A DNA stretch of 34,697 nucleotides. Source: Anabaena sp. UHCC 0204 (GTDB taxonomy: Bacteria > Cyanobacteriota > Cyanobacteriia > Cyanobacteriales > Nostocaceae). Position 1 is the stretch's first letter. The number at the start of each line of letters is the position of its first letter. The stretch lies in NCBI RefSeq assembly GCF_009711975.1, contig NZ_VIKW01000042.1, forward strand, positions 1 to 34,697. Reading direction: 5' to 3'. A program made the position numbers and the translations under genes. Under the pieces are notes generated by a model. That model saw only the letters and a list, made by a program, of their open reading frames with translations, made no database searches and was not told the DNA's origin. Positions 9,369 through 31,335 of this stretch are shown here, one piece after another.

Positions 9369-12300
9369 TTATGAATCCTGATGTTTGATCATATTTGTAC
9401 CGATTAATCCCGCAGATATCGTATTCCAAACCATTGTGAGGTTATTGCTTAAAAAAGAGCCGTGATTACCAGGGACTAGATGTAGTTTAAAGTTACTGAA
9501 AGTGTATTTACTCCAAAGTGAAATTTCCTCTGGTGTAATTTCACTATCTTCCAGTCCCCCAATAGCAGAAAGAGGACAATTCAATGGTTTTCCTTGAGAG
9601 TATTGTTGGTTGTAACTTAATAAGATTTGGATATCTAGTTTTAATCGAGTTGATATAATCTCCATCAAAAATTCATCACTACGAAGAGATTGAGGAATTC
9701 CAGATACAGCTAGAAACTTATGGAGTATTTCTTCTGGAGACAAAGATGATAAAGTTGGTAAATTAGAGACAAGAGCATGAGGAGTTAAAGCCCCACCGAC
9801 AAAAAAGTGTAGGGGTTGTAAACCATATTTTTGCTGTAGTAAATGAGCTAATTCAAAACCTATAAATGCTCCTAAACTTTGACCCCAAAAAGCAAAGGGT
9901 TTATCTAAATAAGCCGGAATAATTTGCTCTAAACAGTGAATAACATTGGCAAATTGTGTAAAGGCTTGATTTTGGGAATCTCCTTCTCTTCCAGGTAATT
10001 CAATGGGGACAATTTCAATTTCTGAAGGCAGATTTTCAGCCCATTCGCGGAAAATATAAGCAGATCCTCCTAATTCATGAAAACAAAATAAACGCAAACT
10101 TGCATTATGTCTGGGTTTATGATAAGCAATTAAGTTAGGAATTTCTCTTTTTGATAACTGATTTGTGATTGATTGTGGTTGTGGTGAAATGTAATTATTT
10201 CCCTTAGTACGTAGACGATTAATTCTCAGAGTTTCTAACTGTTGAGACATTACTTCTAACTGTTGCTGTACTAGATTTACAGGGACTTTTTTCTGTGTTT
10301 GTCTACTAATATTGGTAGGTACAGGAATAGTTGGTTGTGGAGATTTTACACCATTACCGTTAACAGTTGGATTTAAACCATTACCATTTGTATTCATACC
10401 ATTTTCTGGTGATGAAGATGTGATTTTTTGTTGTTTGGTATTATTAACTTCTAGCCAATATGATTTGCGTTCAAATGGATAAGTTGGTAATTCTAACTTA
10501 CGACGGGAATAATTACTATCAAATCCTGACCAGTCTACCGATACTCCATGAATATATAACTGTCCTAAACTTTGCAAAATTTGTTGCCAATCTTGTTGTT
10601 GGGGACGTAAAGATGGCAACCAAATACCAAAATCTTCTGGTAGACATTGACGACCCATACCGATTAAAATGGGCTTGGGTCCAATTTCTAAAAACACTGT
10701 ATATTCTTGTTCATGAAGGGTTTGCATACTATCAGCAAATCTCACAGGTTGAACAATATGTTGTACCCAATATTCAGGTTTAGTAATATGATCATCTGCC
10801 CTTTTTCCAGTAAGATTAGAAATAATAGGAATTCGGGGATTATTATAGGTAACTTGGGATGCTATTTCGGCAAACTCCTCTAAAATTGGGTTCATTAATG
10901 GAGAATGAAAAGCATGAGAAACTTGAAGACGAGTTGTTTTAATGCCTTGATTTGCTGCAATTTTACAAATAGCATCAATAGCTGCTTTATCACCAGAAAT
11001 AACAACACTTTCTGGTCCATTTAAAGCGGCAATACTTACTTGGTTAATGTCAGGTTCTAAAAGTTGTCTTACTTGAGATTCTGAAGCTATTAAAGACACC
11101 ATTTCACCATTAGGGGGTAACTGTTGCATCAATTTTCCCCGACTGGCAATTAATTTTAATCCGTCTTCTAAATTAAAGATGCCGGCTACACAAGCAGCTA
11201 CATATTCACCCACACTATGACCCATAACTATATCGGGTTTAATTCCCCAGGATTTCCATAGTTGAACAAGGGCATATTCAATTGCAAAAATAGCAGGTTG
11301 AGTGTAAGCTGTTTGGTTAAGCAGAGGGTTGTTTTCTGTTTCTGGGTAGAGAATTTCTAATAAAGATTTTTCCAGATAATTCCGCAGAATTTGATCACAT
11401 TCATCCAAAGTTTTCCGGAAAACAAGCTGGGTTTCATATAGTTGTTTTCCCATATTTATATATTGAGAACCTTGTCCGGTAAACAGAAAAGCTACTTTGG
11501 GTATCCCAGCATTACTAGGAAGTTGTTTTTGGAAAATTCCTGCTATTTCTTCTTGCAGTGAAAATTGTTGGAGTTTGGCTGCTAATTCTTTTTTATTGTT
11601 GACAACAACTGCTAACCGATAATTAAAATGAGCGCGTCCAATATTAGCTGTATAACATATATCTGCTATTGCTATTTCGGGATTTTTTTCTAAGTGTTCT
11701 TGATAACGGTTAACTAATTTTTCTAAAGCCTTTTCTGTTTTTGCAGAAAGAGTTAATAAATGTAGTGGACGTTCTAGTAAATCTTCATTTTTTAATTGTT
11801 CTGGTGCTTCCTCTAAAACTATATGGGCATTAGTACCACTAAAACTAAAAGAACTCACACCTGCAATACGATTTTTCCCTTCTATTTGCCAAGGAATAGC
11901 TGTAGTTGGAATAACTACAGGTAATTCTTCCCAATTAATATAAGAACTGGGTTGGTGAAAATGCAAATGTGGTGCTATTTCTTGATGTTGTAATTGCAAG
12001 ACTACTTTGATTAAACCAGCAATACCAGCAGCACCTTCTAAATGTCCGATATTAGTTTTCACTGAACCTAACATCAAGGGGTTTTGTGAAGAATGATTTT
12101 TCCCAAATACCGCACCTAAAGAACCAACTTCAATTGGATCTCCTAAAGATGTTCCTGTACCATGAGCTTCAATATAACTAACTGCTTCTGGACTGACTCC
12201 ACCATTTTCTAAAGCTTTACGAATTACCGCTTGTTGAGAAGGTCCACTGGGTACTGTTAAACCGCTGGTATGACCATCTTGGTTAACAGCACTACCGCGA

Positions 12301-13187
12301 ATTACTGCTAAAATATTATCATTATTGGCGATCGCATCCGACAATCTTTTCAAAACAATAATTCCACATCCTTCACCGCGAACATAACCATCTGCACTAA
12401 CATCAAAAGTCTTACAACGACCATCAGCAGATAACATCCGGGCTTTGGAAAAGTTAATACTTACCTCTGGTGTAATTAGTCGGTTAACTCCTCCGGCGAT
12501 CGCTACATCACTTTCATGATTACGCAGACTAGAACAAGCCAAATGCACTGTTACTAAAGAAGAAGAACAAGCCGTATCTACTGCTAAACTTGGACCTTGT
12601 AAACCGAGAATATAAGAGAGTCTACCAACTGCACTACTATGAGAATTGCCAGTACCAAAATAAGAATCAATTTCTATTTCCTCTTGAGTTAATAGCAGTT
12701 GATAATAATCACTACTACAAATACCAACAAATACACCAGTTTGAGTTTTAGCTAACTTTTGAGGATTGAGAGCAGCATTTTCCAAAGCTTCCCAACTGAC
12801 TTCTAAAATTAACCGATGTTGAGGATCTAAAGCTCGTGCTTCGCGTGGAGAAATAGAAAAAAAACTAGGATCAAATTCTTTTAATTTATCAACAAATGCA
12901 CCATAACGAGTGTACATTTTTCCCGGTGTTTCTTTCTCAGGATCATAATAATCATCAATATTCCATCTATCTTGAGGAACTTCGGTAATAGCATCTACAC
13001 CATTTTTCAAAAGTTGCCAAAAGTCTTCAGGATTGTCAGCACCACCGGGAAACCTACAACCCATACCAATAATAGCAATTGGTTCAATTTTAGCTTTTTC
13101 TAAAGATTGTAATTTGGCTTTGGTTTCGCGTAATTCTACCAAAGCTTTTTTCATTAATGCGGCGTTATCAATTTTGGGTTGGTTCAT
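9369..13187 (-). CDS. Terminal polyketide synthase: KS-AT-thioesterase, no ACP
   Basis: This 1272-aa protein begins with a coiled-coil head (about 10-33). The ketosynthase (35-460) has Cys207 in DTACSSS, His342 in EAHGTGT and His382 in GHLE. The acyltransferase (566-865) has Ser658 in GHSVGEY and HAFHS (758-762), the malonyl-type signature. Residues 915-1025 are a low-complexity Asn/Gly/Gln linker with a short helical QQQLEVMSQQLETL segment. The C-terminal domain (about 1028-1265) is a type II-like thioesterase: LPGREGD, GQSLG with Ser1104, Asp1214 and His1242. There is no ACP (no GxDSx motif), KR or DH. It should add the last malonyl unit and release the product, but the carrier for that unit is unclear. 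It starts 41 bp after the upstream PKS stop, so it is last in the operon. Confidence 0.92.
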   Translation of the reverse strand: MNQPKIDNAALMKKALVELRETKAKLQSLEKAKIEPIAIIGMGCRFPGGADNPEDFWQLLKNGVDAITEVPQDRWNIDDYYDPEKETPGKMYTRYGAFVDKLKEFDPSFFSISPREARALDPQHRLILEVSWEALENAALNPQKLAKTQTGVFVGICSSDYYQLLLTQEEIEIDSYFGTGNSHSSAVGRLSYILGLQGPSLAVDTACSSSLVTVHLACSSLRNHESDVAIAGGVNRLITPEVSINFSKARMLSADGRCKTFDVSADGYVRGEGCGIIVLKRLSDAIANNDNILAVIRGSAVNQDGHTSGLTVPSGPSQQAVIRKALENGGVSPEAVSYIEAHGTGTSLGDPIEVGSLGAVFGKNHSSQNPLMLGSVKTNIGHLEGAAGIAGLIKVVLQLQHQEIAPHLHFHQPSSYINWEELPVVIPTTAIPWQIEGKNRIAGVSSFSFSGTNAHIVLEEAPEQLKNEDLLERPLHLLTLSAKTEKALEKLVNRYQEHLEKNPEIAIADICYTANIGRAHFNYRLAVVVNNKKELAAKLQQFSLQEEIAGIFQKQLPSNAGIPKVAFLFTGQGSQYINMGKQLYETQLVFRKTLDECDQILRNYLEKSLLEILYPETENNPLLNQTAYTQPAIFAIEYALVQLWKSWGIKPDIVMGHSVGEYVAACVAGIFNLEDGLKLIASRGKLMQQLPPNGEMVSLIASESQVRQLLEPDINQVSIAALNGPESVVISGDKAAIDAICKIAANQGIKTTRLQVSHAFHSPLMNPILEEFAEIASQVTYNNPRIPIISNLTGKRADDHITKPEYWVQHIVQPVRFADSMQTLHEQEYTVFLEIGPKPILIGMGRQCLPEDFGIWLPSLRPQQQDWQQILQSLGQLYIHGVSVDWSGFDSNYSRRKLELPTYPFERKSYWLEVNNTKQQKITSSSPENGMNTNGNGLNPTVNGNGVKSPQPTIPVPTNISRQTQKKVPVNLVQQQLEVMSQQLETLRINRLRTKGNNYISPQPQSITNQLSKREIPNLIAYHKPRHNASLRLFCFHELGGSAYIFREWAENLPSEIEIVPIELPGREGDSQNQAFTQFANVIHCLEQIIPAYLDKPFAFWGQSLGAFIGFELAHLLQQKYGLQPLHFFVGGALTPHALVSNLPTLSSLSPEEILHKFLAVSGIPQSLRSDEFLMEIISTRLKLDIQILLSYNQQYSQGKPLNCPLSAIGGLEDSEITPEEISLWSKYTFSNFKLHLVPGNHGSFLSNNLTMVWNTISAGLIGTNMIKHQDS

Positions 13188-13228
13188 TTTTTTAAGATAT
13201 ATCTATTGGATTTTTTTGTTAATGTAAT

Positions 13229-16200
13229 TTACAAACCGTTGAGTTCTGCTGCTAACAATGAGGCAATTTCCTCTTCTGATAAATCTTCTAATTCTTGATT
13301 AATGTTTTCTATTTCTTGAACATTTTCTGGTTCTATTTCTGAAAAATTAATTTCCAAAATATCCTGAATTAAGTAATTTACCATATCCCCAATTGTGGGA
13401 TAATCAAAAGCACCTGTTGAGGGTATAGAACATCCTAAACTCACTTGTAAACGATTTCTCAAATCTACAGAAGTGAGAGAATCCATTCCTAAATCAAAAA
13501 ACCCTTCTTCTAAACCAATTTTCCTAGATTGACTTAAACCTAAAACTCCAGCTACTTGGCGGCTGATATGAGCTTCTAACATGGCTCTGCGTTCACTAGG
13601 GATAGCTGCTTCTAATTCTTGGAGAAATTCTGATTGAGAAGTTAATTCTGCCTGATTTAGTTCTCGATATTTGGCTAAGAATGGCAATTTTTGATATTGT
13701 GGCTGATTTACTAACCATTGTGACCAATTAATAGAGAAAACACCAACTTGGGGAGATTGTGTAGATAACAAATCAGCCAAAGCTTGAAAACCAATCTCAG
13801 GAGAAATAGAAGTAATCCCTTGAGATTGTAACCGCTGTTGATATTGATCTCCTAAACGTGCAGCCATACCACCATCATTCCAAGGTCCCCAATTCACACT
13901 TAAACCCGGTAATCCTAATGCTTGACGGTGATAAACCAAGGCATCCATAAACGCATTTGCTGCGGCATAGTTCCCTTGTCCAGGAGAACCCAGTAAAGAC
14001 GCTATGGAAGAAAAACAAACAAAGAAATCTAAAGGTAAATGCTTAGTAAATTGATGTAAATTCCAAGCCCCCTCTACCTTCGGCTGCATCACCCTAGAAA
14101 ACCGCTCCCAAGTAATTTGTCGCAACATTCCATCATCCAACATTCCCGCCCCATGAATGACACCTTTTAAGGGCTTCCCAGATGCCTCAATTTGCTCAAT
14201 AATGGCTTCTACATCTTGGGGTTGAGAAATATCTCCCAAGCGGACAGAAACCTGTATCCCTAAAGTCTCTAATTCAGTAATCTTAATTTGAGCATTTTGG
14301 GAAGGTTCATTTCTGCCCATTAATACTAAATGTCTCGCACCTTTTTCTCCTAACCACTGCGCTACGGAAAGTCCTAAAGCTCCCAAACCACCAGTAATTA
14401 AATAACTACTCTCACTATCAATATTAATTGCAGTTTGATTAGTAATTTTCCCAGAACCTAAACGCATTACCTGACGCACACCTTGACGATACGCAATCTG
14501 GTTTTCTATATCAACATCAGTAATTTCATCAAAGATGATATTTGCCACTTCTGCTGATTTTATTCCTATTTCTAAATCTAAACAACGACAATTAAATTCA
14601 GGATGTTCTAAAGCAACAACTTTTCCTAAACCCCATAATGGTGCTTGTTGCACTTGTACAGGTTCTTGATCATGATCAATTTGGTGTACACCCTGAGTTA
14701 CTAAGCAAAGTTGAGAAAGTTTGGTTTCTGAATTTGCCACCATTGCTTGCACCAAATGCAGCACACTTCCACAACTAAGAGCCTGAGCATTTGTCAATGA
14801 TTCTGTTGTTGTTTGCAAACTCCATAAATGAACTACACTATCTAATTTTTGTGTTGAGGATATTTCTTGAAGTAACTTTTCAAAATCTGCGGGTTTGCTA
14901 GGACATATTTGATAATGATTTTGATTTAATTTCTGATAATTTTCTCCTGGATAAACAACAATAGATTGATATCCTTGCTTTTCTAATTTGTGAGTTATTT
15001 CTGCGCCCATATTATGACTAGGTGCAAAAATCAACAAAGAAGAAGGGGACAGGTGATAGTTGACAGGTGACAGTGTAGAAGAAGTTTCTATTATTTCTCC
15101 CGTCTTCCCGTCTTCCCTCTTCTTTCTGTCACCTGTCACCTGTTCCCTGTCACCTATTCTTTGCCATTCTACCTGATAATACCAATCACTAAGATTAGGT
15201 TGCAGACTGCGACGCAAGACTTCACGGGAGGCTTTTCTGGCTTCAAAGTTGGTGATTTTGGCAATGATTTCTCCCTGGTTATCAAAGATGAGAAGATCAC
15301 CAATGAGACTTCCTTCCTTATTTTGAGTTATTATGCGAGCATGACACCATAAATTACTGCTTTTTGGTTTTTGGAAGAATTGAAACTTTTCAATATGGAA
15401 GGGAATATAAATAAAGTTATATTTATCTATATGATCCAATTCATCTACTAATCCTTGACACATTCCTAAAACTTGAAAACAGGAATCAATCAAACCAGGA
15501 TAAAGTTGATAATCATTGATTGTATCTGGTATTTCTGGGAGTTCCATTTGTCCGAGTGCTTCTCCCTTACCTTGCCAAGCTTTACCTATCCATTGGAATG
15601 CTGTTCCTAGTGTATATCCGGCTGTGTATAGTTCGTCGTAAAATTGCTTGCCGGGAACTATTTGTGAGCATCTTTTTTGAATATTTTCTACTTCTTGATT
15701 GGAAATAATTGTTTTCTCTATTTCCTGTTCTATTCTCAATAAACCAGTAACGTGATTTACCCAAGCTGTATCTGTTTCTTGATTTTCTTTTCCATGTTCT
15801 AGACTAATAATTTGAAACTGTCTTTGATTTTGATTTTCTGGTTCTATAACTATTTGTAAAATGCGATTTTTATCTTCTGGGATAACAGCAGCTTTTTGAA
15901 AAAATAACTCTTCTATTGTACAATTTGCAGTTCCCAATCCTTGTTTTACTGCTAGGAGAGTTAGGGCTATATGTGAAGCTGCGGCAATAATATTAATACC
16001 AAAGATACGATGATGTTCTTGGTGTGCAGGTGAGTTAATACTAATTTGGGATTCAAATCTAATTTGTGGAGAAAATGGTAGACGAAGACGTTCTCCAATA
16101 AGTGGCTGTTGGTTGGTTTTTCTGACTAGGTTTGTGGCGTTTGGTTCTACCCAGTATTTTTGTCTTTGAAAGGGATAAGTAGGAAGTTGGATTTTTTGAC

Positions 16201-18859: not shown

Positions 18860-18931
18860 AATTATTTTTTTACTGGTTAATTTCAACTGTTTAAAAGATA
18901 TCTATAAATTCAGATAATTTATCCAAAAATA

Positions 18932-21900
18932 TCAATCATCTTCTTCTAAAAAATCATCATTATTTTTATTTCCCAAAGCTGCTAATCTTGCTGATAGCAA
19001 TTGAGCTAAATCATTCTGAGTCATTTCTTGAAAACGATCTGATGAATCATTTTCTACTTCTATTTTTTCCTCTGGGAGAGCAAATTCCAGTGACAATACA
19101 TCATTTTGTAAATAATTTACTAATGCTTCCAAAGTGGGATAATCAAATAAAACCGTTGAACGGACAGAACAAACTAAACTTGATTCAATAATATTTTTTA
19201 ATTCTACTGCCATTAGTGAATCTATGCCTAAATCAAATAGTCGTTCTCTGAGTCCTATTTGTTCTGGGTTTTTCATACCTAGAATTTTGGCAATCTGCAA
19301 ACGAATATGAGCTATTAATAACTCTTGTCTTGTTTCAATAGCGGCTTCCTCTAACTGTTGAATAAATGTAGATTTTTGAGATGGTAATAATGGCTCATTG
19401 TCCACCAATGTTTCTAATAACGGCATTTTTGTACCCCCAGACAATTGTCTCAAAAACTGTGACCAATTGATAGAGAAAACACCAACTTGGGGAGATTGTG
19501 TAGATAACAAATCAGCTAAAGCTTGAAAACCAATTTCAGGAGAAATAGAAGTAATCCCTTGAGATTGTAACCGCTGTTGATATTGATCTCCTAAACGTGC
19601 AGCCATACCACTATTATTCCAAGGTCCCCAATTCACACTTAAACCCGGTAATCCTAACCCTCGACGGTGATAAACCAAAGCATCCATAAACGCATTAGCC
19701 GCTGCATAATTACCTTGTCCAGGAGAACCCAATAAAGACGCTATGGAAGAAAAACATACAAAGAAATCTAAAGGTAAATGCTGGGTACATTCATGTAAAT
19801 ACCAAGCCCCTTCTACCTTCGGCTGCATGACCCTAGAAAACCGCTCCCAATCCATTTGATTTAACATTCCATCATCCAACACCCCCGCACTATGAATAAC
19901 ACCCTTTAACGGCGTTCCAGACATCTCAATTTTCTCGATCATCTCCTGCACATTTGCTAATTGAGAAATATCTCCTGACAACACAGAAATTTTTATCCCT
20001 GCATTTACTAATTTATCAATTTGAGTTTGAGCATTTTGAGAAGGTTCATTTCTGCCTATTAATACTAAATGTTTTGCACCTTTTTCTCCTAACCAATGAG
20101 CTACAGAAAGTCCTAAAGATCCCAAACCACCAGTAATTAAATAACTACTTTCACTATCAATATTAATTGTAGTTTGATTACTAATTTTCCCAGAACCTAA
20201 ACGCATTACATGACGCACACCTTGACGATACGCAATCTGATTTTCTCTATCAACATCAGTAATTTCATCAAAGATGATATTTGCCACTTCTGCTGATTTT
20301 ATTCCTATTTCTAAATCTAAACAACGACAATTAAATTCAGGATGTTCTAAAGCAATAACTTTTCCTAAACCCCATAATGGTGCTTGTTGTACTTGTACAG
20401 ATTCTTGATCATGATTAATTTGGTGTACACCCTGAGTTACTAATAACAACTGCGGTGATATTTTTGTGAAATTCGATAGCATTGCTTGTAATAAATGCAA
20501 GACACTACCGCAAGTCATTTCTTGAGCATTTGTTAATTTGTCTATTGTTGTCCCCAAACTCCACAAATGTACTATTCTCTGTACACTGGTTTCTTCAACT
20601 ATTGCTGATAGTAATTTGTGAAAATCCGCGGGTTGAGTAGGAGATACTTGATAATGATAGTTATCTAGTTTTTGATAATTTTCTCCTGGATAAACAACAA
20701 TAGATTGATATCCTTGCTTTTCTAATTTGTGAGTTATTTCTGCACCCACATTATGACTAGGTGCAAAAATCAACAAAGAAGAAGGGGACAGGTGATAGTT
20801 GACAGGTGACAGTGTAGAAGAAGTTTCTATTATTTCTCCCGTCTTCCCGTCTTCCCTCTTCTTTCTGTCACCTGTCACCTGTTCCCTGTCACCTATTCTG
20901 TCACCTATTTTTTGCCATTCTACCTGATAGTACCAATCATTGAGATTAGGTTGCAGACTGCGACGCAAGACTTCACGGGAGGCTTTTCTGGCTTCAAAGT
21001 TTGTGATTTTGGCAATGATTTCTCCCTGGTTATCAAAGATGAGAATATCACCAATGAGGCTACCTGTCTTGTCTTGATTTATTTGCTGAACATGACACCA
21101 TAAATTACTACTTTTTGGTTGTTGGCAAAATTGAAACTTTTCGATATGGAAGGGAATGAAAATAAAATTATTTGTATCTATATGATCTAGTTCATTTACT
21201 AATCCTTGACACATTCCTAAAACTTGGAAACAGGAATCAATTAAACCAGGATAAAGTTGATAGTCATTTACTGTATCTGGTATTTCTGGAAACTGCATTT
21301 TTCCTAGTGCTTCCCCGTTGCCTTGCCAAGCTTTATCTATCCATTGAAAGGCTGTTCCTAAAGTATATCCGGCTGCGGTTAGTTGTTGATAATATTCCTC
21401 ACCTTTAATTATTTGTGAACATCTTTTTTGGATATTTTCTATTTCTTGATGAGAAATAATTCTATTATCTATTTCTTGTCCTATTTTTAATAACCCAGTA
21501 ACGTGCTTTATCCAAGAAGTATCTTGATTTTCTGTTCCTGTTTCTTGGCTGATGATTTGAAAGTTATTTTGGGTTTTATTTTCTGTTTCGATAATTATTT
21601 GAATAGTGCGGTTGTTCTCTTCAGCAATAACTAGAGGTTTTTGAAAAAATACTTCTTCTATAGTACAGCTTGAAGTATTAAATCCTTGTTTTACTGCTAA
21701 CAGTATCAGAGCAATATGTGAAGCTGCTGCTAATATATTGATATTAAAAATTCTATGGTGTTCTTGGTGTGGGGGGTTATTGGTTGCTAGTTGGTTTTCA
21801 AAGCGAATCTGTGATGTAAATGGTAAACGTAACTGTTCTCCCAGTAGTGGATGTTGGTGAGATTTTCTATGTTGTTTAACTAGGTTTGTGGTAGGATGAG

Positions 21901-24667
21901 TATAATGATTTGTTTCTAACCAATAACGTTGTCTTTGGAAAGGGTAAGTAGGAAGTTGCACTTTCTGACGGTGATAATCTGCGTCAAATCCTAACCAGTC
22001 AATTTCCGCACCTTGAATATATAATTGTCCTAAAGTTTGCAATATTTGTTGCCATTCTCCTGTTCCTGGACGGAGAGATGGTAGCCATATTCCAATATGA
22101 TCAGATATACATTGTCTACCCATGCCTAATAAAGTGGATTTGGGTCCTATTTCTAGAAATACTTCATAACCTAATTCTATTAAAGTGTTGATACTATCTG
22201 CAAATCTCACTGGTTGAGAAATATGACTTACCCAATATTTGGAAGTAGTAATAGTAGCATCTGCTTTTTGTCCAGTTAGGTTAGAAATTAGGGGAATTTT
22301 CGGTTGATTGTATGTAATTTGTTGAGCTATTTTCTCAAATTCTGCCAGCATTGGTGACATGAGAGGAGAATGAAAAGCATGAGATACTTCTAAATATTTA
22401 GTTTTAATGTTTTGCTGTTCTAGTTGATTGCAAATTTCTCTAATAGCTGCTTTTTCTCCAGAAATAACAATGCTATTTGGTGTGTTGTAAGCAGCAATAC
22501 TTACTTGTTTATATGGGGCAATTATTGGTTGAATTTGTGCTGCTGTGGCAATAATGGCTACCATTTCTCCTCCAGTTGGTAGCTGCTGCATGAGTTGACC
22601 ACGATAGGCAATTAATTTTAATCCGTCTTCTAAACTGAATATTCCTGCTAGACAAGCGGCGACATATTCACCTACACTATGACCTATAACTATATCTGGT
22701 TTAATTCCCCAAGATTTCCACATTTGTGCTAAGGCATATTCTATGGCAAATAAGGCAGGTTGAGTATAGGCTGTTTGATTTATTAAATCTGTTTCTGTAT
22801 ACAGGATTTCTATTAATGGTTTTTCTAAATATTGATTGAGTATTCGATTACATTCTTCTATAGCTTTTCTAAATATTGGTTGAGTTTCATATAGTGATTT
22901 TCCCATTCCCACATATTGCGAACCTTGTCCTGTGCAGAGGAAGGCTATTTTGGGGGATTTATTGCTAGTTAATTGACCTTGTAAAGAGATTTCCTGGAAC
23001 GTTTCTACATCTGCTATTCCTGTCAAGAAAATATTCAATTGGTGACTTAACTGGAGATTTGATTCGGCAATTATAGCTAATCTGTGGTCAAAATGCGATC
23101 GCCCTGTATTGGCTGTAAAAGATATATCTGCAATAGATACCGCTGGGTTTTGACTTAAAAATTCCTGATAGTTCTGCACCAAATCCTGCAAAGCTTGTTT
23201 ACTTTTCCCGGAAAGTGTCAAAAGATGCAAAGGACGTTCTTGAATATGATCTCCATTCTTTAATTGTTCCGGTGCTGATTCGACAATTAAATGCACATTT
23301 GTACCACTCATGCCAAAGCAGCTAACTCCGGCTAAATTTTGTCCATCTTTTCCTGTCCAAGGCGTTAATTCGGTAGCAACTGCAATTGGTAACTTGTCCC
23401 AAGGAATATAGGGATTAGGATTTTTAAAATTCAGATGTGGAGGAATTTGTTGATGTTGCAAAGATAAAATTACTTTAATTAAACTAGCTACACCAACTGC
23501 TGCTTCCAAATGTCCAAAATTAGTTTTCAAAGAACCAATCATCAAAGGATCTTGCTTTGACCGATTTTCGCCGAAAACTTTTCCTAATGCTAATACCTCA
23601 ATGGGATCTCCCAAAGGTGTGCCTGTACCGTGTGCTTCCACATATTGGATCTGCTCTGGTTTTACCCTAGCATTGGCTAATGCTTGCTTAATGACGGCTT
23701 CTTGAGCCGAGCCGTTAGGGGCTGTCAACCCGTTACTTTTACCATCGTGGTTGGCAGCAGAACCGCGAATTACTGCCAGAATGTTATCATGATCGGCGAT
23801 CGCATCTGATAATCTTTTCAGCACTACCATACCACAGCCTTCACCCCTAGCATAACCATCAGCCGCAGCATCAAAGGTTTTACAGTGTCCGTCCGCAGAC
23901 AAAGCCTTGGTTTTGCAGAATAAAATGGTGGTAATTGGGGAAAGCATCAAATTCACCCCACCGGCTAAAGCGAGATTGCATTCACCCGAACGCAGACTTT
24001 GACAAGCTAAATGAATACCCAACAACGAAGATGAGCAAGATGTATCTAACTGCATCGTTAAACCCTGTAAACCCAGGATATAAGCCAAACGACCGATAGC
24101 GATACTCCGCGCAGTCCCAAAACCACTGTAAGCATCAAGACGGTTTAAATCATCAAAATTGATACTCAGTTGAGAATAATCATCCGCACTCATCCCTACA
24201 AATAGCCCGGTTTGCGTGCCTTTGAGTCCTTCTGCGGCTATTCCCGCATTTTCTATCGCTTCCCAAGCAACTTCTAGAAGTAGCCTTTGTTGGGGGTCCA
24301 TGTCTATGGCTTCGCGGGGAGAAATGCCAAAAAATTGTGGATCAAATTGATCTACTGCATCTAAAAAACCGCCATAGCGAGTATACATTTTACCAGGAGC
24401 ATCTGGATCAGGATCATAATAACGATCAACATCCCAACGTTGAGCCGGAATTTCTGTAATTGCATCTTCACCATTTGCTAATAATTGCCAAAATGTTTCC
24501 GGATTTTTGACACCTCCAGGAAACCGCAACCCCATCCCAATAATAGCAATCGGTTCGGTTTTTTGGCGCTCTACATTTTCTAATTGAGTGCGGGCTTGCT
24601 TGAGGGCATTTAGTAACCGTTGTAATGTGGCATTTTGATCCTGATTAGATGCGGAAATATTACTCAT
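18932..24667 (-). CDS. Type I polyketide synthase module KS-AT-DH-KR-ACP (first extender)
   Basis: A 1911-aa protein whose ATG overlaps the stop of the loading protein (ATGA at 24667-24664), so the two are likely translationally coupled. Domains are: KS (38-462; Cys211 in DTSCSSS, unusual Ser before Cys; His346 and His386); AT (573-868; Ser664 in GHSVGEY; HAFHS, malonyl type); DH (938-1225; His971, but HRIFN in place of HxxxG and Ala for the motif Pro; Asp1144 in LIDSCFQ); KR (1295-1735; TGGLGSLG; Ser1641, Tyr1654; LDD at 1597-1599, B-type); ACP (1770-1855; Ser1817 in LGIDSL). There is no enoylreductase. A coiled-coil head (about 12-36) and an acidic tail are probable docking elements. The DH may be weak or inactive, which would leave a hydroxyl. 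A repeat-derived segment (about 1253-1290) precedes the KR. Confidence 0.93.
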   Translation of the reverse strand: MSNISASNQDQNATLQRLLNALKQARTQLENVERQKTEPIAIIGMGLRFPGGVKNPETFWQLLANGEDAITEIPAQRWDVDRYYDPDPDAPGKMYTRYGGFLDAVDQFDPQFFGISPREAIDMDPQQRLLLEVAWEAIENAGIAAEGLKGTQTGLFVGMSADDYSQLSINFDDLNRLDAYSGFGTARSIAIGRLAYILGLQGLTMQLDTSCSSSLLGIHLACQSLRSGECNLALAGGVNLMLSPITTILFCKTKALSADGHCKTFDAAADGYARGEGCGMVVLKRLSDAIADHDNILAVIRGSAANHDGKSNGLTAPNGSAQEAVIKQALANARVKPEQIQYVEAHGTGTPLGDPIEVLALGKVFGENRSKQDPLMIGSLKTNFGHLEAAVGVASLIKVILSLQHQQIPPHLNFKNPNPYIPWDKLPIAVATELTPWTGKDGQNLAGVSCFGMSGTNVHLIVESAPEQLKNGDHIQERPLHLLTLSGKSKQALQDLVQNYQEFLSQNPAVSIADISFTANTGRSHFDHRLAIIAESNLQLSHQLNIFLTGIADVETFQEISLQGQLTSNKSPKIAFLCTGQGSQYVGMGKSLYETQPIFRKAIEECNRILNQYLEKPLIEILYTETDLINQTAYTQPALFAIEYALAQMWKSWGIKPDIVIGHSVGEYVAACLAGIFSLEDGLKLIAYRGQLMQQLPTGGEMVAIIATAAQIQPIIAPYKQVSIAAYNTPNSIVISGEKAAIREICNQLEQQNIKTKYLEVSHAFHSPLMSPMLAEFEKIAQQITYNQPKIPLISNLTGQKADATITTSKYWVSHISQPVRFADSINTLIELGYEVFLEIGPKSTLLGMGRQCISDHIGIWLPSLRPGTGEWQQILQTLGQLYIQGAEIDWLGFDADYHRQKVQLPTYPFQRQRYWLETNHYTHPTTNLVKQHRKSHQHPLLGEQLRLPFTSQIRFENQLATNNPPHQEHHRIFNINILAAASHIALILLAVKQGFNTSSCTIEEVFFQKPLVIAEENNRTIQIIIETENKTQNNFQIISQETGTENQDTSWIKHVTGLLKIGQEIDNRIISHQEIENIQKRCSQIIKGEEYYQQLTAAGYTLGTAFQWIDKAWQGNGEALGKMQFPEIPDTVNDYQLYPGLIDSCFQVLGMCQGLVNELDHIDTNNFIFIPFHIEKFQFCQQPKSSNLWCHVQQINQDKTGSLIGDILIFDNQGEIIAKITNFEARKASREVLRRSLQPNLNDWYYQVEWQKIGDRIGDREQVTGDRKKREDGKTGEIIETSSTLSPVNYHLSPSSLLIFAPSHNVGAEITHKLEKQGYQSIVVYPGENYQKLDNYHYQVSPTQPADFHKLLSAIVEETSVQRIVHLWSLGTTIDKLTNAQEMTCGSVLHLLQAMLSNFTKISPQLLLVTQGVHQINHDQESVQVQQAPLWGLGKVIALEHPEFNCRCLDLEIGIKSAEVANIIFDEITDVDRENQIAYRQGVRHVMRLGSGKISNQTTINIDSESSYLITGGLGSLGLSVAHWLGEKGAKHLVLIGRNEPSQNAQTQIDKLVNAGIKISVLSGDISQLANVQEMIEKIEMSGTPLKGVIHSAGVLDDGMLNQMDWERFSRVMQPKVEGAWYLHECTQHLPLDFFVCFSSIASLLGSPGQGNYAAANAFMDALVYHRRGLGLPGLSVNWGPWNNSGMAARLGDQYQQRLQSQGITSISPEIGFQALADLLSTQSPQVGVFSINWSQFLRQLSGGTKMPLLETLVDNEPLLPSQKSTFIQQLEEAAIETRQELLIAHIRLQIAKILGMKNPEQIGLRERLFDLGIDSLMAVELKNIIESSLVCSVRSTVLFDYPTLEALVNYLQNDVLSLEFALPEEKIEVENDSSDRFQEMTQNDLAQLLSARLAALGNKNNDDFLEEDD
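20786..20909. repeat. Repeat-derived palindromic insertion inside the PKS KR region (copy 2)
   Basis: The second copy of the 15047-15158 element, almost identical, with one extra 12-bp CTGTCACCTATT-like unit that duplicates Ile-Gly-Asp-Arg in the protein. It keeps the reading frame. Confidence 0.8.
21930..22936. repeat. 1,007-bp near-identical AT block (copy in first PKS)
   Basis: Partner of 16161-17167. It covers the whole acyltransferase catalytic domain and the post-AT linker up to the YPFQRQ motif. Confidence 0.85.
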
Positions 24668-27600
24668 TTCCTTTGCTCCAATAAATTTTCTAACTCTGAT
24701 ATTTCCTGATTAATTAATGCTTCCAGATCCAATTCAGCAGGCTGATTTTGGTTACTAGAAATTGGCTTTTCCAAGGGCAAATCTGGGATTTGATTAGTTA
24801 AATATTTACATAAAGATTCAATAGTTGGAAAATTCCAAATTATAGTAGCTTCTAAAGGACGATCTAACCATTCTTCCAATTCTTGAGCTAATTCAACAGC
24901 CATAACTGAATCCATGCCATAATCAGCAAAGGATTTCCCCACATCAATTTTATTGATATCTATTCTTAATTTTTCAGCTAACCATTTTTCAATCCAGTTT
25001 CCTACAGATTCAAAAGAATTTTTGGTACTTGGTACTATTTCCTTTGGTAACTCTGTGTGAACGTCATTCGGAAAATTATTAACTGTTCCCTGTTCCCTGC
25101 TCTCTGTTCCCTGTTCCCTGTTCCCTGTTCCCTGTTTTAATAATTGATCAAGATCAGTATCTTCTCCTGCTAAAACTTGTTCTATATCGCCAATAGTGTC
25201 AGTGTAATTATATATCTGATTCACAATCACATTAGCATCATCTCTAATTAATTCGGCTGGTGTTCCATTTAGTAAATTAGTAAGTTTCTGTTCAAAATTT
25301 AATCTTGCCCAAGTGAATGCTCGTTGTAAATGATCAGCATCACATCGGTTGATTTTTCCTGCTAATGCAGCCAAAAGAATCGCCCAAGTTGTTAATTCAC
25401 CAGTTCGTAGATACAACCATTGTCGGCTCTCCACATTATTTTTAGAATTAGTAAACTGAGCATTAATTTGTGTTACTGCTGCTTTGAGAACTTCAGCAAT
25501 TTCCGGCGCTTCTAAACCGACACACAAGAAATTATCTAATTCTGCGCTTTTGTTTAAAATCCGTGATCCCAAAAACATATTTAATGTTTCCGTCGGACCT
25601 TCAAAAATGCGAAGTAGTCTCGCATCTCTGAGAATTTGGGGAGCAATATTCGTCTCTATATAACCCCGACCACCTAATAATTGTACTAAATGATCAGCCG
25701 CTTGCCATAAAAATTCTGGACCTGATGTTTTACAAGCTGCATAGGCTTCTTCAGGAAGAGAATAACCCTGATCTAATAAATCCGCAATTCTAAAAACTAG
25801 AGTTTCTAAAGTTGTAATAGCCGCTGTAATTTCCGTTAACCAATTTAATGTTAAAGGATTATCTATTAAACGACCTGTAGAAATAGAACGGCGTGAACCA
25901 TAGCGCAGCATCAATTGAGTACAACGTTTCATCCCCCCAATACTCATTGCTCCTAAACCTAATCGTCCGAACATCATCGCATCTTGAGCAACTTCTAAAC
26001 CTCCGCCTAATTCCCCTAATAAATGTTCAGAAGTCACGCTCACATCATCAAGATATATCTTATTTTGCACCATGCCTCTCATGCCCATTGTCAAGGCTTC
26101 TGGACCTTGGCGCAATCCTTTTGTCCCTTGACGAATCATGAAACCAGTAATCCCAATTGGTTGATGATTTTCATTCAGTAATTGCACAAAAACATTGATA
26201 ATTCCCGCCCATGCACCTGTACCAATCCATTCTTTTTGACCACGCAACCGCCAACCACCTTGAGAATCGGGAATTGCTTGGGATAAAATGCCTCTAGGGT
26301 TAGAACCGGCACAGGGTTCGGTAATTGCAAAAGCCCCTAATTCACGACCTTGAGCAATTAAAGGCAGAAATTGATCCCGGATACTAGATGTAGCGTAGTT
26401 CATCAAGGGACGAGTTCCCAAAGCATGATGAACACCGACAAAAGAGGCCAGAGTGAGGTCAATGGCGGCGAGTTGTTCAATTACCCGTAAGGTGTCACGA
26501 TTACTGAGAGCGATTCCTCCATACTGTTCGGGAACTTGCATTCCCAAAATCCCCCGATTTCCGAAATCAAGGACAATATAAGGCGGAATGCAGCGACGTT
26601 CATCAATTATCCTGGAGTTAATCCGTTCTCCTGCATAGTTCCGCAGCCAATTAATCAGATCATCGGCACGGGATTTGCTGTTATTGGCGACAACTGGGAG
26701 AGAATTTCGTGGAGATTGTTGTATAGGTTCTGACTGCCAACTCCCTACCACACTGAAACTATCTGCTAAAAATGCTGCTCGACAAGCTTGGCGCTGGATT
26801 TTGCCACTGGATGTCTTGAAAATACTGCCTGTTTTCAGTAAAACTACGGCATAAATTTGTAATTCATGGTGAATAGAAACTACTCTGCGGATAGCTTCAA
26901 CTACTTCATCAACATCAAGTTTACGGATATAAGTCCGTTCTACTTCTTGGGCAATAACCAGTCTTTCTTCACCATCTACTTCTACTGTAAATGCTGCCCC
27001 GCTGCCTGGTTTGAGGGCTGGATGACTGTTTTCTACTGTTAGTTCAATATCTTGGGGGTAATGATTACGACCACGGATAATAATGACATCTTTAATTCGT
27101 CCGGTAACAAATAATTCACCATTCTGCACAAATCCTAAATCACCAGTGCGGAGAAATGGTCCGGCTTTGGTATCTGCTAAATAGGCGTTAAAGGTGGCTT
27201 CTGTCTGTTCTGATCTTTGCCAATAACCTTGGGCTACATGGGGTCCTGATACCCAAATCTCTCCCACTTGATTAGCCAGACAACGAGTTAAGGATTCTGG
27301 ATCAGCGATGATGATTTCTTGCTCTAACCATGTTTGCCCACAACCAACGATTTTTCGGCTATTTTGCGGTTTTGTGGTGGTAATAATCTGGTTTTGTGCT
27401 AGGGCTGTTTCGGCTACTGAAATCATCACAGGATCTGCTGTTTGTAAGCCGCCAGAAACTAATAAAGTTGTTTCTGCCATGCCGTAACAGGGATAAAATG
27501 CTTCTGGGCGAAAACCACAGGATGCAAAGGTGGTAGTAAATTTTTCCAGGGTTTGGGCGTGAATGGGTTCTGCACCATTAAAGGCTACTTGCCAACTACT

Positions 27601-28461
27601 TAAATCTAAAGTTGCTATTTGTTCTGGTGTGATTTTACGAACACACAAATCATAAGCAAAGTTAGGTCCTCCTGATGTGGTGGCTTTGTAGCGAGAAATA
27701 GCCGCTAACCAGCGATATGGCTTTTGGATAAAGTCTACTGGTGACATTAAATAACATGGTATCCCCAAGTACATGGGCTGGAGGACATTTCCTATCAATC
27801 CCATGTCATGAAATAAGGGCAGCCAACCAGCAAAAATAGTGCTTTGATCATGATTAAAGGCTATTTGAATCATTTGCTCGTTGTATAGCAAATTACTATG
27901 ACTCACCATTACGCCTTTTGGTGTGCCTGTAGAACCGGAGGTGTATTGCAGAAAGGCCAGTGTATCGCTGTTAATTGCTGGTTTTTCCCAGTTTAAGGCT
28001 TGGTCAGTATGAATATTATCTGTTGCTAAGGATTTTAATATATTGAATTCGGGATTTTCGCTGATCCGCTCCTGTATATTTGCCAATAAACCTGTAGTTG
28101 TTAATACTGCTGCTGCTTGGGCATCTCTGATAATTGCCTCTAGCCTAGACATATTCTGATTACGTCGGGGTGGATAGGCGGGAATGGCTACTACACCAGC
28201 ATACAGACACCCAAAGAATGCACAAATAAATTCTAACCCAGATGGATACAGTAGTAATACTCGATCACCTGGTGCTAAAAATGACTGGAGTTCAGAAGCG
28301 ATCGCTCTGGCTTTTGTATCTAACTGTTGATATGTCAAACTGTCTGATTCTATTTCCCCATTTTCCAGAAAGGTATATGCTGTCTGGCTCGGATGGTATA
28401 ATGCTCTTTTCTGTAGCAGGTCTACTAGAGTGTTTGGGCAATAATTCAGATCAATCGTCAT
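24664..28461 (-). CDS. Fused fatty acyl-AMP ligase / acyl-CoA dehydrogenase / acyl carrier protein (loading protein)
   Basis: The ATG at 28461 (1265 aa) has AGAGG just upstream. A TTG 36 bp earlier also keeps the frame open but has less support. The FAAL domain (3-575) shows YTSGSTGTPKG (173-183), YGMAET, RTGDLG and GRIKDVIIIRGRNHYPQDIE in the C-terminal part, plus the extra segment typical of FAALs. It should adenylate a free fatty acid and transfer it to the ACP. The ACAD domain (about 600-975) shows AITEPCAGSNP, LLGGRGYI and RIFEGPTE with the likely catalytic Glu954, and should bind FAD and form a 2-enoyl thioester on the ACP. A linker (975-1150) contains a heptamer-repeat-coded GNREQGT-type segment. 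The ACP (1155-1225) has Ser1185 in YGMDSV. The short C-terminal helix (ELDLEALINQEISELENLL) probably docks onto the first PKS. It is the first gene of the operon. Confidence 0.93.
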   Translation of the reverse strand: MTIDLNYCPNTLVDLLQKRALYHPSQTAYTFLENGEIESDSLTYQQLDTKARAIASELQSFLAPGDRVLLLYPSGLEFICAFFGCLYAGVVAIPAYPPRRNQNMSRLEAIIRDAQAAAVLTTTGLLANIQERISENPEFNILKSLATDNIHTDQALNWEKPAINSDTLAFLQYTSGSTGTPKGVMVSHSNLLYNEQMIQIAFNHDQSTIFAGWLPLFHDMGLIGNVLQPMYLGIPCYLMSPVDFIQKPYRWLAAISRYKATTSGGPNFAYDLCVRKITPEQIATLDLSSWQVAFNGAEPIHAQTLEKFTTTFASCGFRPEAFYPCYGMAETTLLVSGGLQTADPVMISVAETALAQNQIITTTKPQNSRKIVGCGQTWLEQEIIIADPESLTRCLANQVGEIWVSGPHVAQGYWQRSEQTEATFNAYLADTKAGPFLRTGDLGFVQNGELFVTGRIKDVIIIRGRNHYPQDIELTVENSHPALKPGSGAAFTVEVDGEERLVIAQEVERTYIRKLDVDEVVEAIRRVVSIHHELQIYAVVLLKTGSIFKTSSGKIQRQACRAAFLADSFSVVGSWQSEPIQQSPRNSLPVVANNSKSRADDLINWLRNYAGERINSRIIDERRCIPPYIVLDFGNRGILGMQVPEQYGGIALSNRDTLRVIEQLAAIDLTLASFVGVHHALGTRPLMNYATSSIRDQFLPLIAQGRELGAFAITEPCAGSNPRGILSQAIPDSQGGWRLRGQKEWIGTGAWAGIINVFVQLLNENHQPIGITGFMIRQGTKGLRQGPEALTMGMRGMVQNKIYLDDVSVTSEHLLGELGGGLEVAQDAMMFGRLGLGAMSIGGMKRCTQLMLRYGSRRSISTGRLIDNPLTLNWLTEITAAITTLETLVFRIADLLDQGYSLPEEAYAACKTSGPEFLWQAADHLVQLLGGRGYIETNIAPQILRDARLLRIFEGPTETLNMFLGSRILNKSAELDNFLCVGLEAPEIAEVLKAAVTQINAQFTNSKNNVESRQWLYLRTGELTTWAILLAALAGKINRCDADHLQRAFTWARLNFEQKLTNLLNGTPAELIRDDANVIVNQIYNYTDTIGDIEQVLAGEDTDLDQLLKQGTGNREQGTESREQGTVNNFPNDVHTELPKEIVPSTKNSFESVGNWIEKWLAEKLRIDINKIDVGKSFADYGMDSVMAVELAQELEEWLDRPLEATIIWNFPTIESLCKYLTNQIPDLPLEKPISSNQNQPAELDLEALINQEISELENLLEQRK
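25084..25132. repeat. Heptanucleotide tandem repeat within the loading-protein gene, seven units
   Basis: Seven contiguous 7-bp units (TGTTCCC, one variant TGCTCTC) lie in the ACAD-ACP linker. Read on the coding strand, three units make a 7-residue period (GNREQGT, ESREQGT). A gain or loss of three units keeps the frame; other changes would break the gene. Confidence 0.9.
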
Positions 28462-28916
28462 TTGGCCTCTATGACAAAATTGTGCAGTTATCAGCAAGTC
28501 TATGATTTTGGCAGCTATTTATAAAATACCTGACATTTAGGCTAGGCATTGCTAGTATTTATTGGTACTAATTATGCAGTGTATAGTGAATCACTATGAC
28601 TTGCAAGCAGTCTGACTTAAACTTTCAGTAGCATGGTAATCATAATTTTGTCAATTAAAAACAGTGAATTTTAAATTAGCACTAAAATAATTGCATTAGT
28701 TCCTGGACTTTGGCAAGATATTTCAGTAATTATTTTAACTTTACTCGTGATCAGTAATATTAGGTAACGTTGTCTGCTATATAGTAGCTTAACTGTTAGC
28801 TAATTTTGAATAAGCAAATGAAAACAGGCTAAAAACCAATTTAGCGCCATAAATTTTCACAATACTGATAGAATTTACAGCTAAAATCCAAAACAATTGC
28901 ACTAGGTAGGTAATAT
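28462..28916. promoter_or_regulatory. Divergent control region between the PKS operon and the cupin gene
   Basis: This 455-bp non-coding region lies between the start codons of the loading protein (minus) and the cupin-like oxygenase (plus), so both promoters should be here. I see a 15-bp perfect palindrome (28583-28597). On the minus strand, TATACA partly overlaps it with TTGCAA 15 bp upstream, a weak promoter match. No convincing NtcA site (GTA-N8-TAC) was found. Confidence 0.5.
28583..28597. promoter_or_regulatory. 15-bp palindrome ATAGTGAATCACTAT, candidate operator
   Basis: The two 7-bp arms are perfect around a single A. It lies about 120 bp upstream of the operon start codon and would overlap the spacer/-10 area of a weak minus-strand promoter. 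Binding by a dimeric repressor or activator is inference; no regulator gene is next to it. Confidence 0.4.
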
Positions 28917-29984
28917 ATGGTGAGACGCTTAGAAATTACAAGGGTAAAAGATGCCAACTATAGCACTCTTAAAAAAGAAACTGAGAACTTTCAAAAACCA
29001 ATTATTTATAATTTAAATGACAATGATATATCACGAATTCAAGCATTAAAAAATACTCTCATAAATTTTGAACAAAATTACAAAGAACAAGTTTTTAAGA
29101 GCAATGATAATTTAAGCGATCTCAATAATATTATGGAATACTCCAGAGGGGAAGATTCTCGTGGTAGTAAAACTTATTCCACATCTCTATTCTTTTTCAC
29201 CAAGGATAAAATTCTCTCGCCAATTGGATTTAAAGATGAGAAATACAATCATCAACTAGAAAATATCATTCAATTCTTTTTTAATACAGAATTCTTTCGA
29301 GAAAAACTAGTGGATTCTTCCCTTCTGCAAAAAGTAATTATATTCATAGGCTTAAAGAAAGGGATTTTTGGCAAATTTATTCTATCCAATTTATCTACTA
29401 TAGTCAATGGTAATACCTGGTGTAGTCAAGGTAATACTAATACCTTCATTCATGCAGATCATGGCTTATGTAACTTTTTTGTACAATTAGCAGGAAGGAA
29501 AAGATGGTGGATAGCTTCTCATTTTCAAAAAAAGGAATTATTAGAATCTGTATTTCAATGTGATCTAACTAAACTAAATTTAAGTGACACTAGTTTAGAT
29601 AATTTAGAATACTATGATTTTGAGCTTCAGGAAGGGGAAATATTGTATTTACCTACTAATTGGTTACATGGTGTAGTTTCTCCACCAGGGCTAAACTTAT
29701 CTTTGTCCTTTCTGTTTCCAATGACTGTTCTAGAACTTGTGAAAAATTTGCTGTACTGGAAATCTATAGGAGTACCTTTAAATAACACTAAAAAGAGTAG
29801 TCTTATAGAAGATAAAAGTTTGGCTGATTTAAATGCTGAACAAGCTGAGACATTTAATACTGTGAAATTTTATCTGCGTGAACATAAGTTTGCTAAGAGA
29901 AAAATACTTGCTCATGAGCCTGAATTTGTATCTGGGCTATATGATAGTGATAAACTCAATAAAGCAATTACGGGGGCTGAATAA
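28917..29984 (+). CDS. JmjC/cupin_8-like protein, putative Fe(II)/2-oxoglutarate-dependent hydroxylase
   Basis: A 355-aa protein. The jelly-roll core (about 150-270) carries the metal motif HAD (His179, Asp181) in NTFIHADHG, then LAGRKRWWIAS, LQEGEILYLPTNWLHGV with the third ligand His251, and LNLSLSFLF. This is the pattern of the cupin_8/JmjC-like oxygenases, which hydroxylate proteins or small molecules. The N-terminal 140 residues and the C-terminal helical 85 are not recognised. AGGTAGG 6 nt before the ATG supports the start. It is transcribed away from the polyketide operon. A tailoring role on the polyketide chain is plausible from position only. Base composition is noticeably more AT-rich than neighbouring genes. 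Confidence 0.75.
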   Translation: MVRRLEITRVKDANYSTLKKETENFQKPIIYNLNDNDISRIQALKNTLINFEQNYKEQVFKSNDNLSDLNNIMEYSRGEDSRGSKTYSTSLFFFTKDKILSPIGFKDEKYNHQLENIIQFFFNTEFFREKLVDSSLLQKVIIFIGLKKGIFGKFILSNLSTIVNGNTWCSQGNTNTFIHADHGLCNFFVQLAGRKRWWIASHFQKKELLESVFQCDLTKLNLSDTSLDNLEYYDFELQEGEILYLPTNWLHGVVSPPGLNLSLSFLFPMTVLELVKNLLYWKSIGVPLNNTKKSSLIEDKSLADLNAEQAETFNTVKFYLREHKFAKRKILAHEPEFVSGLYDSDKLNKAITGAE

Positions 29985-30594: not shown

Positions 30595-31335
30595 TCAATT
30601 ATTCTTACTCACAAAGACAAACCCCCGTGTCTTCCCTGCTGTTGAATCAACTGTATTCATTGCTTTCCATAAATCTGCTGTTTTTACCCAAACTGGGGGA
30701 TATTTATAGCGAGAAACATCCATAATTAAAAATCTATCTGTTAACTCATTATATGCTGCCAAAGGCGAAATATGTCCACCTCTTTCTTGACCAATTTCTT
30801 TACGTAAATAGTTAATAACAACAAAGTTTTTTGTTTGTTTTAAATTCTCTGCTGCTAACTTACGAAATTCTTCTAAACTCGTATCACCAGCATGATAAAC
30901 TTTAACTTGTACATTGTAACTTTCTAACAATCCTCCTAACTCACTTAAAGTCATACCTTGACGAGAAACAATTTCCGAAGTTACTACATTTCTAGTTTTT
31001 TCATTACTAAAAAAGTTATCTTGAGTAAATACCCGAAATGGTTTATATTGGGGTGCTTCTGGTGCAGGGATTTTCAAGCTATTTAGCACCATAACAATAC
31101 TAGCAACTCCACAATATGCCTGATTATTTTGTGTGACAAATTGTGTACTTAATGGAAAAAAATCACTTTTTGATTTACTCGCAATCAATAAAGTTTCCCC
31201 TTCCGGAGTATCAAAACTAATTAAGTTAGATGAAAGTGGTAATGTTTGAGCAAAAACATTGCCTCCAGCTAAACAAATACCCAGAATTATAACTCTAATT
31301 GATGTTTTAATAGAACAAATTACCCTCAATTTCAT
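30595..31335 (-). CDS. Phytochelatin-synthase-like papain-fold peptidase (gamma-glutamylcysteine dipeptidyl transferase family), exported
   Basis: A 246-aa protein corresponding to the catalytic N-terminal half of plant phytochelatin synthase, as in the short cyanobacterial homologue of Nostoc. The triad is visible: Cys75 (QAYCGVASIVMVLN), His188 (ERGGHISPLAAY) and Asp206 (LIMDVSRYKYPPVWV). A signal-like N-terminus (1-29, ending NVFAQ) suggests export. The Nostoc enzyme mainly removes glycine from glutathione and makes phytochelatin poorly; the same is expected here, so the role may be glutathione turnover rather than metal detoxification. The plant Cys-rich metal-sensing C-terminal domain is absent. 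The gene follows the nucleoside transporter by 65 bp on the same strand. Confidence 0.9.
   Translation of the reverse strand: MKLRVICSIKTSIRVIILGICLAGGNVFAQTLPLSSNLISFDTPEGETLLIASKSKSDFFPLSTQFVTQNNQAYCGVASIVMVLNSLKIPAPEAPQYKPFRVFTQDNFFSNEKTRNVVTSEIVSRQGMTLSELGGLLESYNVQVKVYHAGDTSLEEFRKLAAENLKQTKNFVVINYLRKEIGQERGGHISPLAAYNELTDRFLIMDVSRYKYPPVWVKTADLWKAMNTVDSTAGKTRGFVFVSKNN

Follow-up and report, generated by a model that had tools for sequence, protein, structure and literature searches.

A candidate lipid-polyketide assembly line of Anabaena sp. UHCC 0204 that ends in an ACP-less KS-AT-TE protein

We analysed a 34,697-nucleotide stretch of DNA from Anabaena sp. UHCC 0204 (positions 1-34697 of contig NZ_VIKW01000042.1; hereafter the window), which carries a candidate lipid-polyketide assembly line of four genes. 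The genome assembly comprises 5.74 Mb in 83 contigs. Four stop-free open reading frames (ORFs), all on the minus strand, follow one after another from 28461 down to 9369 and, by the listed start codons, are joined by a 4-bp overlap and then by gaps of 45 and 41 bp. The first gene (24664..28461; ORF 24664-28497, ATG at 28461) encodes a loader with fatty acyl-AMP ligase (FAAL), acyl-CoA dehydrogenase (ACAD) and acyl carrier protein (ACP) domains, matching Pfam AMP-binding, Acyl-CoA_dh N, M and C, and PP-binding. Two polyketide synthases (PKSs) follow, PKS1 (18932..24667) and PKS2 (13229..18886), each with ketosynthase (KS), malonyl-type acyltransferase (AT), dehydratase (DH; Pfam PS-DH), LDD-type ketoreductase (KR) and ACP domains. 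The last gene (9369..13187) encodes a KS, an AT, a linker and a thioesterase (TE). All Pfam matches in this FAAL-ACAD-ACP, KS-AT-DH-KR-ACP, KS-AT-DH-KR-ACP, KS-AT-TE order were above cut-off, and an earlier note on this DNA, made from the sequence alone, had the domain string and its coordinates right. The Pfam scan took in 15 of the window proteins; in agreement with the earlier note, it found no nonribosomal peptide synthetase or halogenase domain among these 15 proteins.

Each of the three window modules has an intact KS Cys-His-His triad and intact malonyl-type AT motifs (GHSVG, Arg, HAFHS). Both KRs carry the LDD motif plus Ser/Tyr/Asn, the DH His and Asp are present in PKS1 and PKS2, and the window carriers hold their serine in a DSL or DSV motif (GMDSV in the loader). 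The domains and AT motifs bear out the proposal of two malonyl-specific modules lacking enoyl reduction. By sequence, the loader can be classed as FAAL type, with an AMP-binding domain above the Pfam cut-off followed by an ACP and cis-AT modules; the NCBIfam FAAL models match it strongly yet below their own curated cut-offs. The Glu of the ACAD EGPTE stretch is kept in this cluster and in both sibling clusters described below, and we take Glu966 (numbered from the 28497 start) to be the ACAD catalytic residue. The FAAL-ACAD-ACP domains and the ACAD Glu support the idea that a free fatty acid would be activated and desaturated on the carrier. The loader gene also contains a heptamer array (CTGTTCC, 7.7 copies, 25083-25136), in frame within the ACAD-ACP linker.

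The terminal protein was previously described as an unusual release protein, which it is, without mention of its missing carrier. No PP-binding match was found by Pfam in the KS-AT-TE protein of the window or in its orthologues from Anabaena sp. FACHB-1237 and Cyanothece sp. SIO2G6 (3/3), so that none of the three shows the KS, AT and ACP of a canonical elongation module. In an alignment with four homologous KS-AT-x-TE proteins, the DSL carrier motif lies in the AT-TE linker of those four and is absent from the three ACP-less proteins. The structure model based on these seven sequences (overall mean predicted local distance difference test (pLDDT) score 62.9) gives the linker a pLDDT below 50 with a single helix (residues 71-95 of the modelled piece), and the TE domain mostly 65-91. 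KS3 Cys-His-His and AT3 GHSVG/Arg/HAFHS are intact in all three orthologues. As an intact, conserved AT sits beside an intact KS, the sequences argue for a genuine third extension.

We searched for relatives with a query made up of the linker and the TE. Of the 388 genomes of a class sample, 4 matched at E 1e-55 or better: the source genome, FACHB-1237 and SIO2G6, all ACP-less, and a fourth (G001) with a KS-AT-ACP-TE protein. Nine of 217 genomes in the family set matched, two of them ACP-less and four with a carrier match (G105, G131, G001 and G581), while the remaining three matches sit in short frames that were left unread. Linker-TE identity to the two ACP-less relatives is 60% and 44%, and one of these relatives shares only its class with the source genome. 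A Prochloraceae metagenome-assembled genome (MAG; L148:7506-10445) encodes AprA-type N-terminal domains, an ACP, an AT and a related TE in one protein, with no KS match.

The TE catalytic residues, Ser1104, Asp1214 and His1242, are invariant in the seven aligned sequences. Its best sequence matches are stand-alone type II TEs, and RedJ, ClbQ, RifR and BorB are among the top rows of its structure matches. These matches, together with the intact Ser-Asp-His, place the TE in the type II family. The window TE thus resembles RedJ, RifR, ClbQ and BorB in sequence and fold; these enzymes are, however, stand-alone proteins, whereas the window TE is fused to KS-AT. Type II TEs act on carriers in trans, and hydrolysis in trans by the fused domain would fit this habit.

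A further gene missed earlier, at 28917..29984 on the plus strand, diverges from the operon across an intergenic region (28462..28916). A promoter scan of 28400-29000 was uninformative, with 5 promoter-like sites against 2.9 expected (sd 1.6), about chance level. The gene encodes a putative cupin-8/JmjC-type Fe(II)/2-oxoglutarate oxygenase, with a Pfam match and a metal triad His179-x-Asp181 ... His251, and the HxD...H motif is invariant in 3/3 copies. The window protein is 77% identical to the copy of FACHB-1237, where the gene likewise diverges from FAAL. At E 1e-20 it has matches in three class genomes out of 388 (the source, FACHB-1237 and SIO2G6), the same three that bear the ACP-less KS-AT-TE. 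Both scans drew on one class sample (n = 388 each), whose genome-by-genome identity we assumed; the chance of one exact triple is about 1e-7, uncorrected for relatedness. The cupin was also found in 2 of 388 genomes of an order sample at E 1e-10, a sample that overlaps the class sample, and in one of the two genomes of SIO2G6's order; the plasmid collection gave no match. On this distribution, we consider that the cupin gene belongs to the assembly-line system. In a laxaphycin-type (scytocyclamide) cluster, cupin-8 proteins have been proposed to act as hydroxylases (PMC7524897).

We favour, with confidence that is about evenly balanced, an intact orphan lipid-polyketide pathway in which the terminal KS-AT adds a third malonyl unit on a borrowed ACP and the TE releases the chain. 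FAAL would adenylate a free fatty acid and transfer it to its own ACP, on which the ACAD domain would form a 2-enoyl-ACP. PKS1 and PKS2 would each add malonyl and reduce it with their LDD-type KRs; dehydration is expected, although unproven, giving a diene and then a triene, or hydroxyls. KS3 would then pick up the chain off the ACP of PKS2. Because its protein contains no ACP, AT3 would have to load malonyl on a carrier from outside, most simply the PKS2 ACP, the nearest candidate since it is emptied once KS3 takes the chain. KS3 would form a beta-keto thioester on this borrowed carrier, and the fused type II-family TE, acting in trans, would hydrolyse it; the resulting beta-keto acid may decarboxylate to a methyl ketone. 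The most likely role of the cupin/JmjC protein is hydroxylation of either the chain or the product after release. The line was earlier called complete: its four genes are intact, but with a terminal unit lacking an ACP it is complete only if one is borrowed.

Alternatively, KS3-AT3-TE could take the chain off the PKS2 ACP and release it unextended, AT3 being structural. Release would occur by TE hydrolysis or by KS transfer to water or an amine, yielding a polyene or hydroxy acid or an amide. CalA3 of the calcimycin pathway offers a published precedent (PMC10006239): it is a terminal type I PKS without an ACP that receives its chain from an upstream ACP, and its KS carries out amidation or hydrolysis. 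The type II kinship of the fused TE would also suit a releasing role. CalA3, however, is a TE-less KS-AT-DH-KR protein whose AT is dead, having lost Ser, His and Arg, whereas AT3 keeps all three in 3/3 orthologues and is accompanied by a fused TE; the window protein is thus like CalA3 in its lack of an ACP and unlike it in its AT. Furthermore, no amine-supplying enzyme was detected by Pfam among the 10 flanking proteins. Because AT3 is intact, we rank CalA3-like release second, as a possible explanation to which we give markedly less weight than to the borrowed-ACP pathway.

Several findings weigh against a borrowed PKS2 carrier and the steps drawn around it. The genome holds 29 PP-binding matches; 26 lie outside the cluster, some in frames of 88, 96 and 143 aa (G000:C33, C14 and C77, respectively). 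In addition, none of the six DHs in the three clusters has the Pro of the motif HxxxGxxxxP, which is Ala in both window DHs, and three of the six, window PKS1 included, carry Asn in place of the Gly, so that dehydration by PKS1 and PKS2 may fail. Up to three conjugated double bonds had been predicted; the DH His and Asp are present, but with Pro changed to Ala in both DHs a triene is not assured. The cupin co-occurrence comes from three genomes, two of them from one family, and depends on the samples and thresholds used (1e-55 for KS-AT-TE, 1e-20 for the cupin), which remoter ACP-less proteins would escape. The SIO2G6 cupin gene lies on a separate contig, cut at the contig end; we considered whether that contig adjoins the PKS contig and dropped the idea, as the ends share no sequence. 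We likewise dropped assignment of a JmjC fold by structure, since the cupin model had a pLDDT of 31 and even its best PDB sequence match was weak (E 0.071); the putative activity is read from the HxD...H motif together with the Pfam match.

The short PP-binding frames would suit another explanation, in which a discrete ACP encoded elsewhere serves KS3-AT3-TE in trans as an ordinary split module. In the clusters of both relatives, a small ACP is also encoded downstream of FAAL (94 aa and Pfam-confirmed in FACHB-1237; 98 aa and recognised only by eye in SIO2G6). These small ACPs, however, belong to the loading end, alongside FAAL and the tailoring genes, and the window retains its KS-AT-TE although its cluster has no small ACP. 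On the window contig, PP-binding matches were only the three within multidomain proteins. We regard an ACP from elsewhere as unlikely, slightly more so than release without extension.

As to the DH motif, a survey in which the DHs of the window itself do not appear found the Pro in 13 of 20 matches. Of the seven matches without Pro, the two sibling clusters supplied six (with some genes counted twice) and an Aquabacterium MAG the other, in the first module downstream of its FAAL-ACAD-ACP loader. The loss of Pro thus seems to be a trait of the lineage. This MAG encodes FAAL-ACAD-ACP, two KS-AT-DH-KR-ACP proteins and a third PKS, truncated at the end of the contig, with KS-AT and a weak match to KR.

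We then considered whether the cluster is decaying or silent, its ACP deleted and the operon productless. The non-canonical DH motifs would be in keeping with decay, as would the distribution of the loader within the genus. Its ACAD part was unmatched at E 1e-30 in all 15 other genomes of the genus, one of which matched only the post-ACAD part (query residues 490-685). One of 16 genus genomes has a match with seven in-frame stops (4 TGA and 3 TAA; G099:C4:562682-564742), and this FAAL(-ACAD) match is, by its sequence, a decayed loader relative. A broken operon would have overturned the earlier prediction, but the four frames and that of the cupin are all open, the catalytic KS, AT and TE residues are intact, and ACP loss is common to two other genomes as distant as the linker-TE identities indicate. 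We therefore consider decay very improbable and return to the borrowed-ACP pathway as the preferred explanation.

The loader itself is ordinary. We scanned genome contigs with an ACAD-ACP query and retained 80 of 82 confirmed loci; domain scans of these fetched loci found fused FAAL-ACAD-ACP in 48, FAAL-ACAD without a detected ACP in 7 and KS-ACAD-ACP in 2. A Gloeocapsa sp. PCC 7428 plasmid has FAAL-ACAD-ACP with PKS and NRPS genes and an adjoining TonB siderophore receptor. A Xenococcus contig has FAAL-ACAD-ACP followed directly by KS-AT-ACP-TE, a minimal two-protein version that retains the ACP.

The FACHB-1237 and SIO2G6 clusters share with the window the order ACAD-ACP, PKS1, PKS2, ACP-less KS-AT-TE, and each genome has a cupin/JmjC gene. 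FACHB-1237 encodes FAAL, ACP, a CylC-like protein, KS-ACAD-ACP, PKS1, PKS2 with a methyltransferase, and KS-AT-TE; SIO2G6 encodes FAAL, two desaturases, the ACP-like 98-aa ORF, KS-x-ACAD-ACP, PKS1, PKS2 with a methyltransferase, and KS-AT-TE. In place of the window's fused loader, its siblings use a free-standing FAAL with a small ACP, a tailoring step (the CylC-like protein or the two desaturases) and an AT-less KS-ACAD-ACP, and both carry in PKS2 the methyltransferase that is absent from window PKS2. The loader KS of SIO2G6 (L160:262-5235) keeps its Cys and has lost both catalytic His, that of FACHB-1237 has not lost them, and neither protein has a Pfam AT match (2/2). Because of these losses and the missing ATs, the sibling loader KS probably merely hands the chain on. 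In PKS2 of the relatives, a Tyr-to-His change could have meant an inactive KR and hence an alpha-pyrone; we dropped it as proof, as His occurs at this position in 22 of 30 KR motifs scanned, from ORF sets that overlap in part; these His-bearing motifs come mostly from large modules.

The 460-aa protein of FACHB-1237 is presumably CylC-like, although it matched neither Pfam nor NCBIfam models and nothing useful in the PDB. The label leans on its position after FAAL and ACP and on a Planktothrix homologue (46%) that is similarly placed. CylC clusters with CylC placed after FAAL and ACP are described in PMC8406957. A literature search by strain name returned nothing for FACHB-1237; SIO2G6 was not searched by name.

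Comparison of the three clusters also revealed how the modules have evolved. KS domains cluster by module across species (window-FACHB-1237 identity 81% for KS1, 85% for KS2 and 82% for KS3, so that KS3 is as constrained as the other two), with supports of 94-99 for the PKS2 and KS-AT-TE groups. ACPs also cluster by module (80 and 77%), with lower support, to 79. The ATs of PKS1 and PKS2 instead cluster by species with support 100: identity between the two within a cluster is 98% in the window, 100% in FACHB-1237 and 79% in SIO2G6, against 51-62% between clusters. The homogenised stretch of FACHB-1237 is 99.8% identical over 1056 bp, covering the AT and the start of the following linker. In the window it runs from AT to KR, at 85.7% over 3866 columns, unevenly and with an exact run of 491 bp, compared with 66% in the KS. 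These sequences indicate concerted evolution of the two PKS modules, weaker in SIO2G6.

The window PKS2 has KS and ACP domains orthologous to the methyltransferase-bearing PKS2 of its siblings and an AT-to-KR core that is module-1-like. Its DH is 58% identical to that of FACHB-1237 PKS1 and 28% to that of FACHB-1237 PKS2, and the PKS2 DHs of FACHB-1237 and SIO2G6, and likewise their KRs, form a clade of their own with support 100. The placing of the window KRs relative to the FACHB-1237 PKS1 KR is weak (support 34). As the window PKS2 DH is PKS1-like and the sibling PKS2 DHs and KRs stand apart, the PKS1 core likely overwrote the DH-methyltransferase-KR part of PKS2 in the window lineage. Judged from the assembly, a misjoining of the two repeats would not on its own take away a methyltransferase. 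Near-identical repeat-rich stretches lie in frame in the DH-KR interval of both PKS genes (15048-15159 and 20787-20909), probably from one insertion later copied by conversion. AT conversion inside a cluster with module-specific KSs was already known (PMC4256081); as in that case, the KSs here are stable, but the window conversion runs from AT to KR in one lineage, with the methyltransferase absent.

FAAL pathways of cyanobacteria are well known (PMC11837247). The Microcystis orphan cluster PmNT3, compared in print with the merocyclophane and cylindrocyclophane clusters, resembles the window in having an acyl ligase-ACAD-PP loader and then KS-AT-DH-KR-PP (PMC11264947). Its second PKS, however, ends in PP-TE and its cluster includes a type III PKS, the enzyme that marks these paracyclophane-type FAAL clusters, whereas the window ends in an ACP-less KS-AT-TE and no type III PKS was matched by Pfam among 14 window proteins scanned. 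The string KS-AT-TE is written for one contig among Gambierdiscus BurA-like transcripts (PMC7159223). Fuller dinoflagellate BurA-like contigs run to KR-PP, and their AT motif is KAFH against HAFH in the window; by this description the dinoflagellate string does not represent a terminal ACP-less unit like that of the window. The loader type and an ACP-less release module with a dead AT (CalA3) are already in print, and an ACP-less KS-AT-TE with an intact AT differs from them; no such terminal protein was found in the literature searched on that point. Taken together, one ACP for two extensions with a built-in TE, a family-specific JmjC oxygenase and a conversion replacing the methylating core form a combination that we put forward tentatively, with less assurance than the borrowed-ACP pathway itself.

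The earlier note had not recognised the pathway. This stands for the architecture as a whole, for which searchable papers gave no product (subscription journals, MIBiG and antiSMASH being outside their scope), but not for its parts, as the loader is widespread and PmNT3 and the two siblings are related. For the predicted unsaturated lipid, these papers assign no product. If the ACP is shared, these four proteins would offer a testable system in which the rule of one module, one carrier breaks down. With the loader exchanged, the methyltransferase present or absent and the AT domains homogenised, the three sibling clusters are in addition a natural series of domain swaps that could inform PKS engineering.

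Seven flanking genes of the window (encoding HisKA, BON and ABC1 proteins, a 148-aa ORF, phytochelatin synthase, a transporter and an amidohydrolase) were unmatched in the fetched stretches of FACHB-1237 and SIO2G6, and we therefore place the unit at about 9369-29984. The phytochelatin synthase gene lies at 30595-31335, past the cupin gene and the 148-aa ORF.

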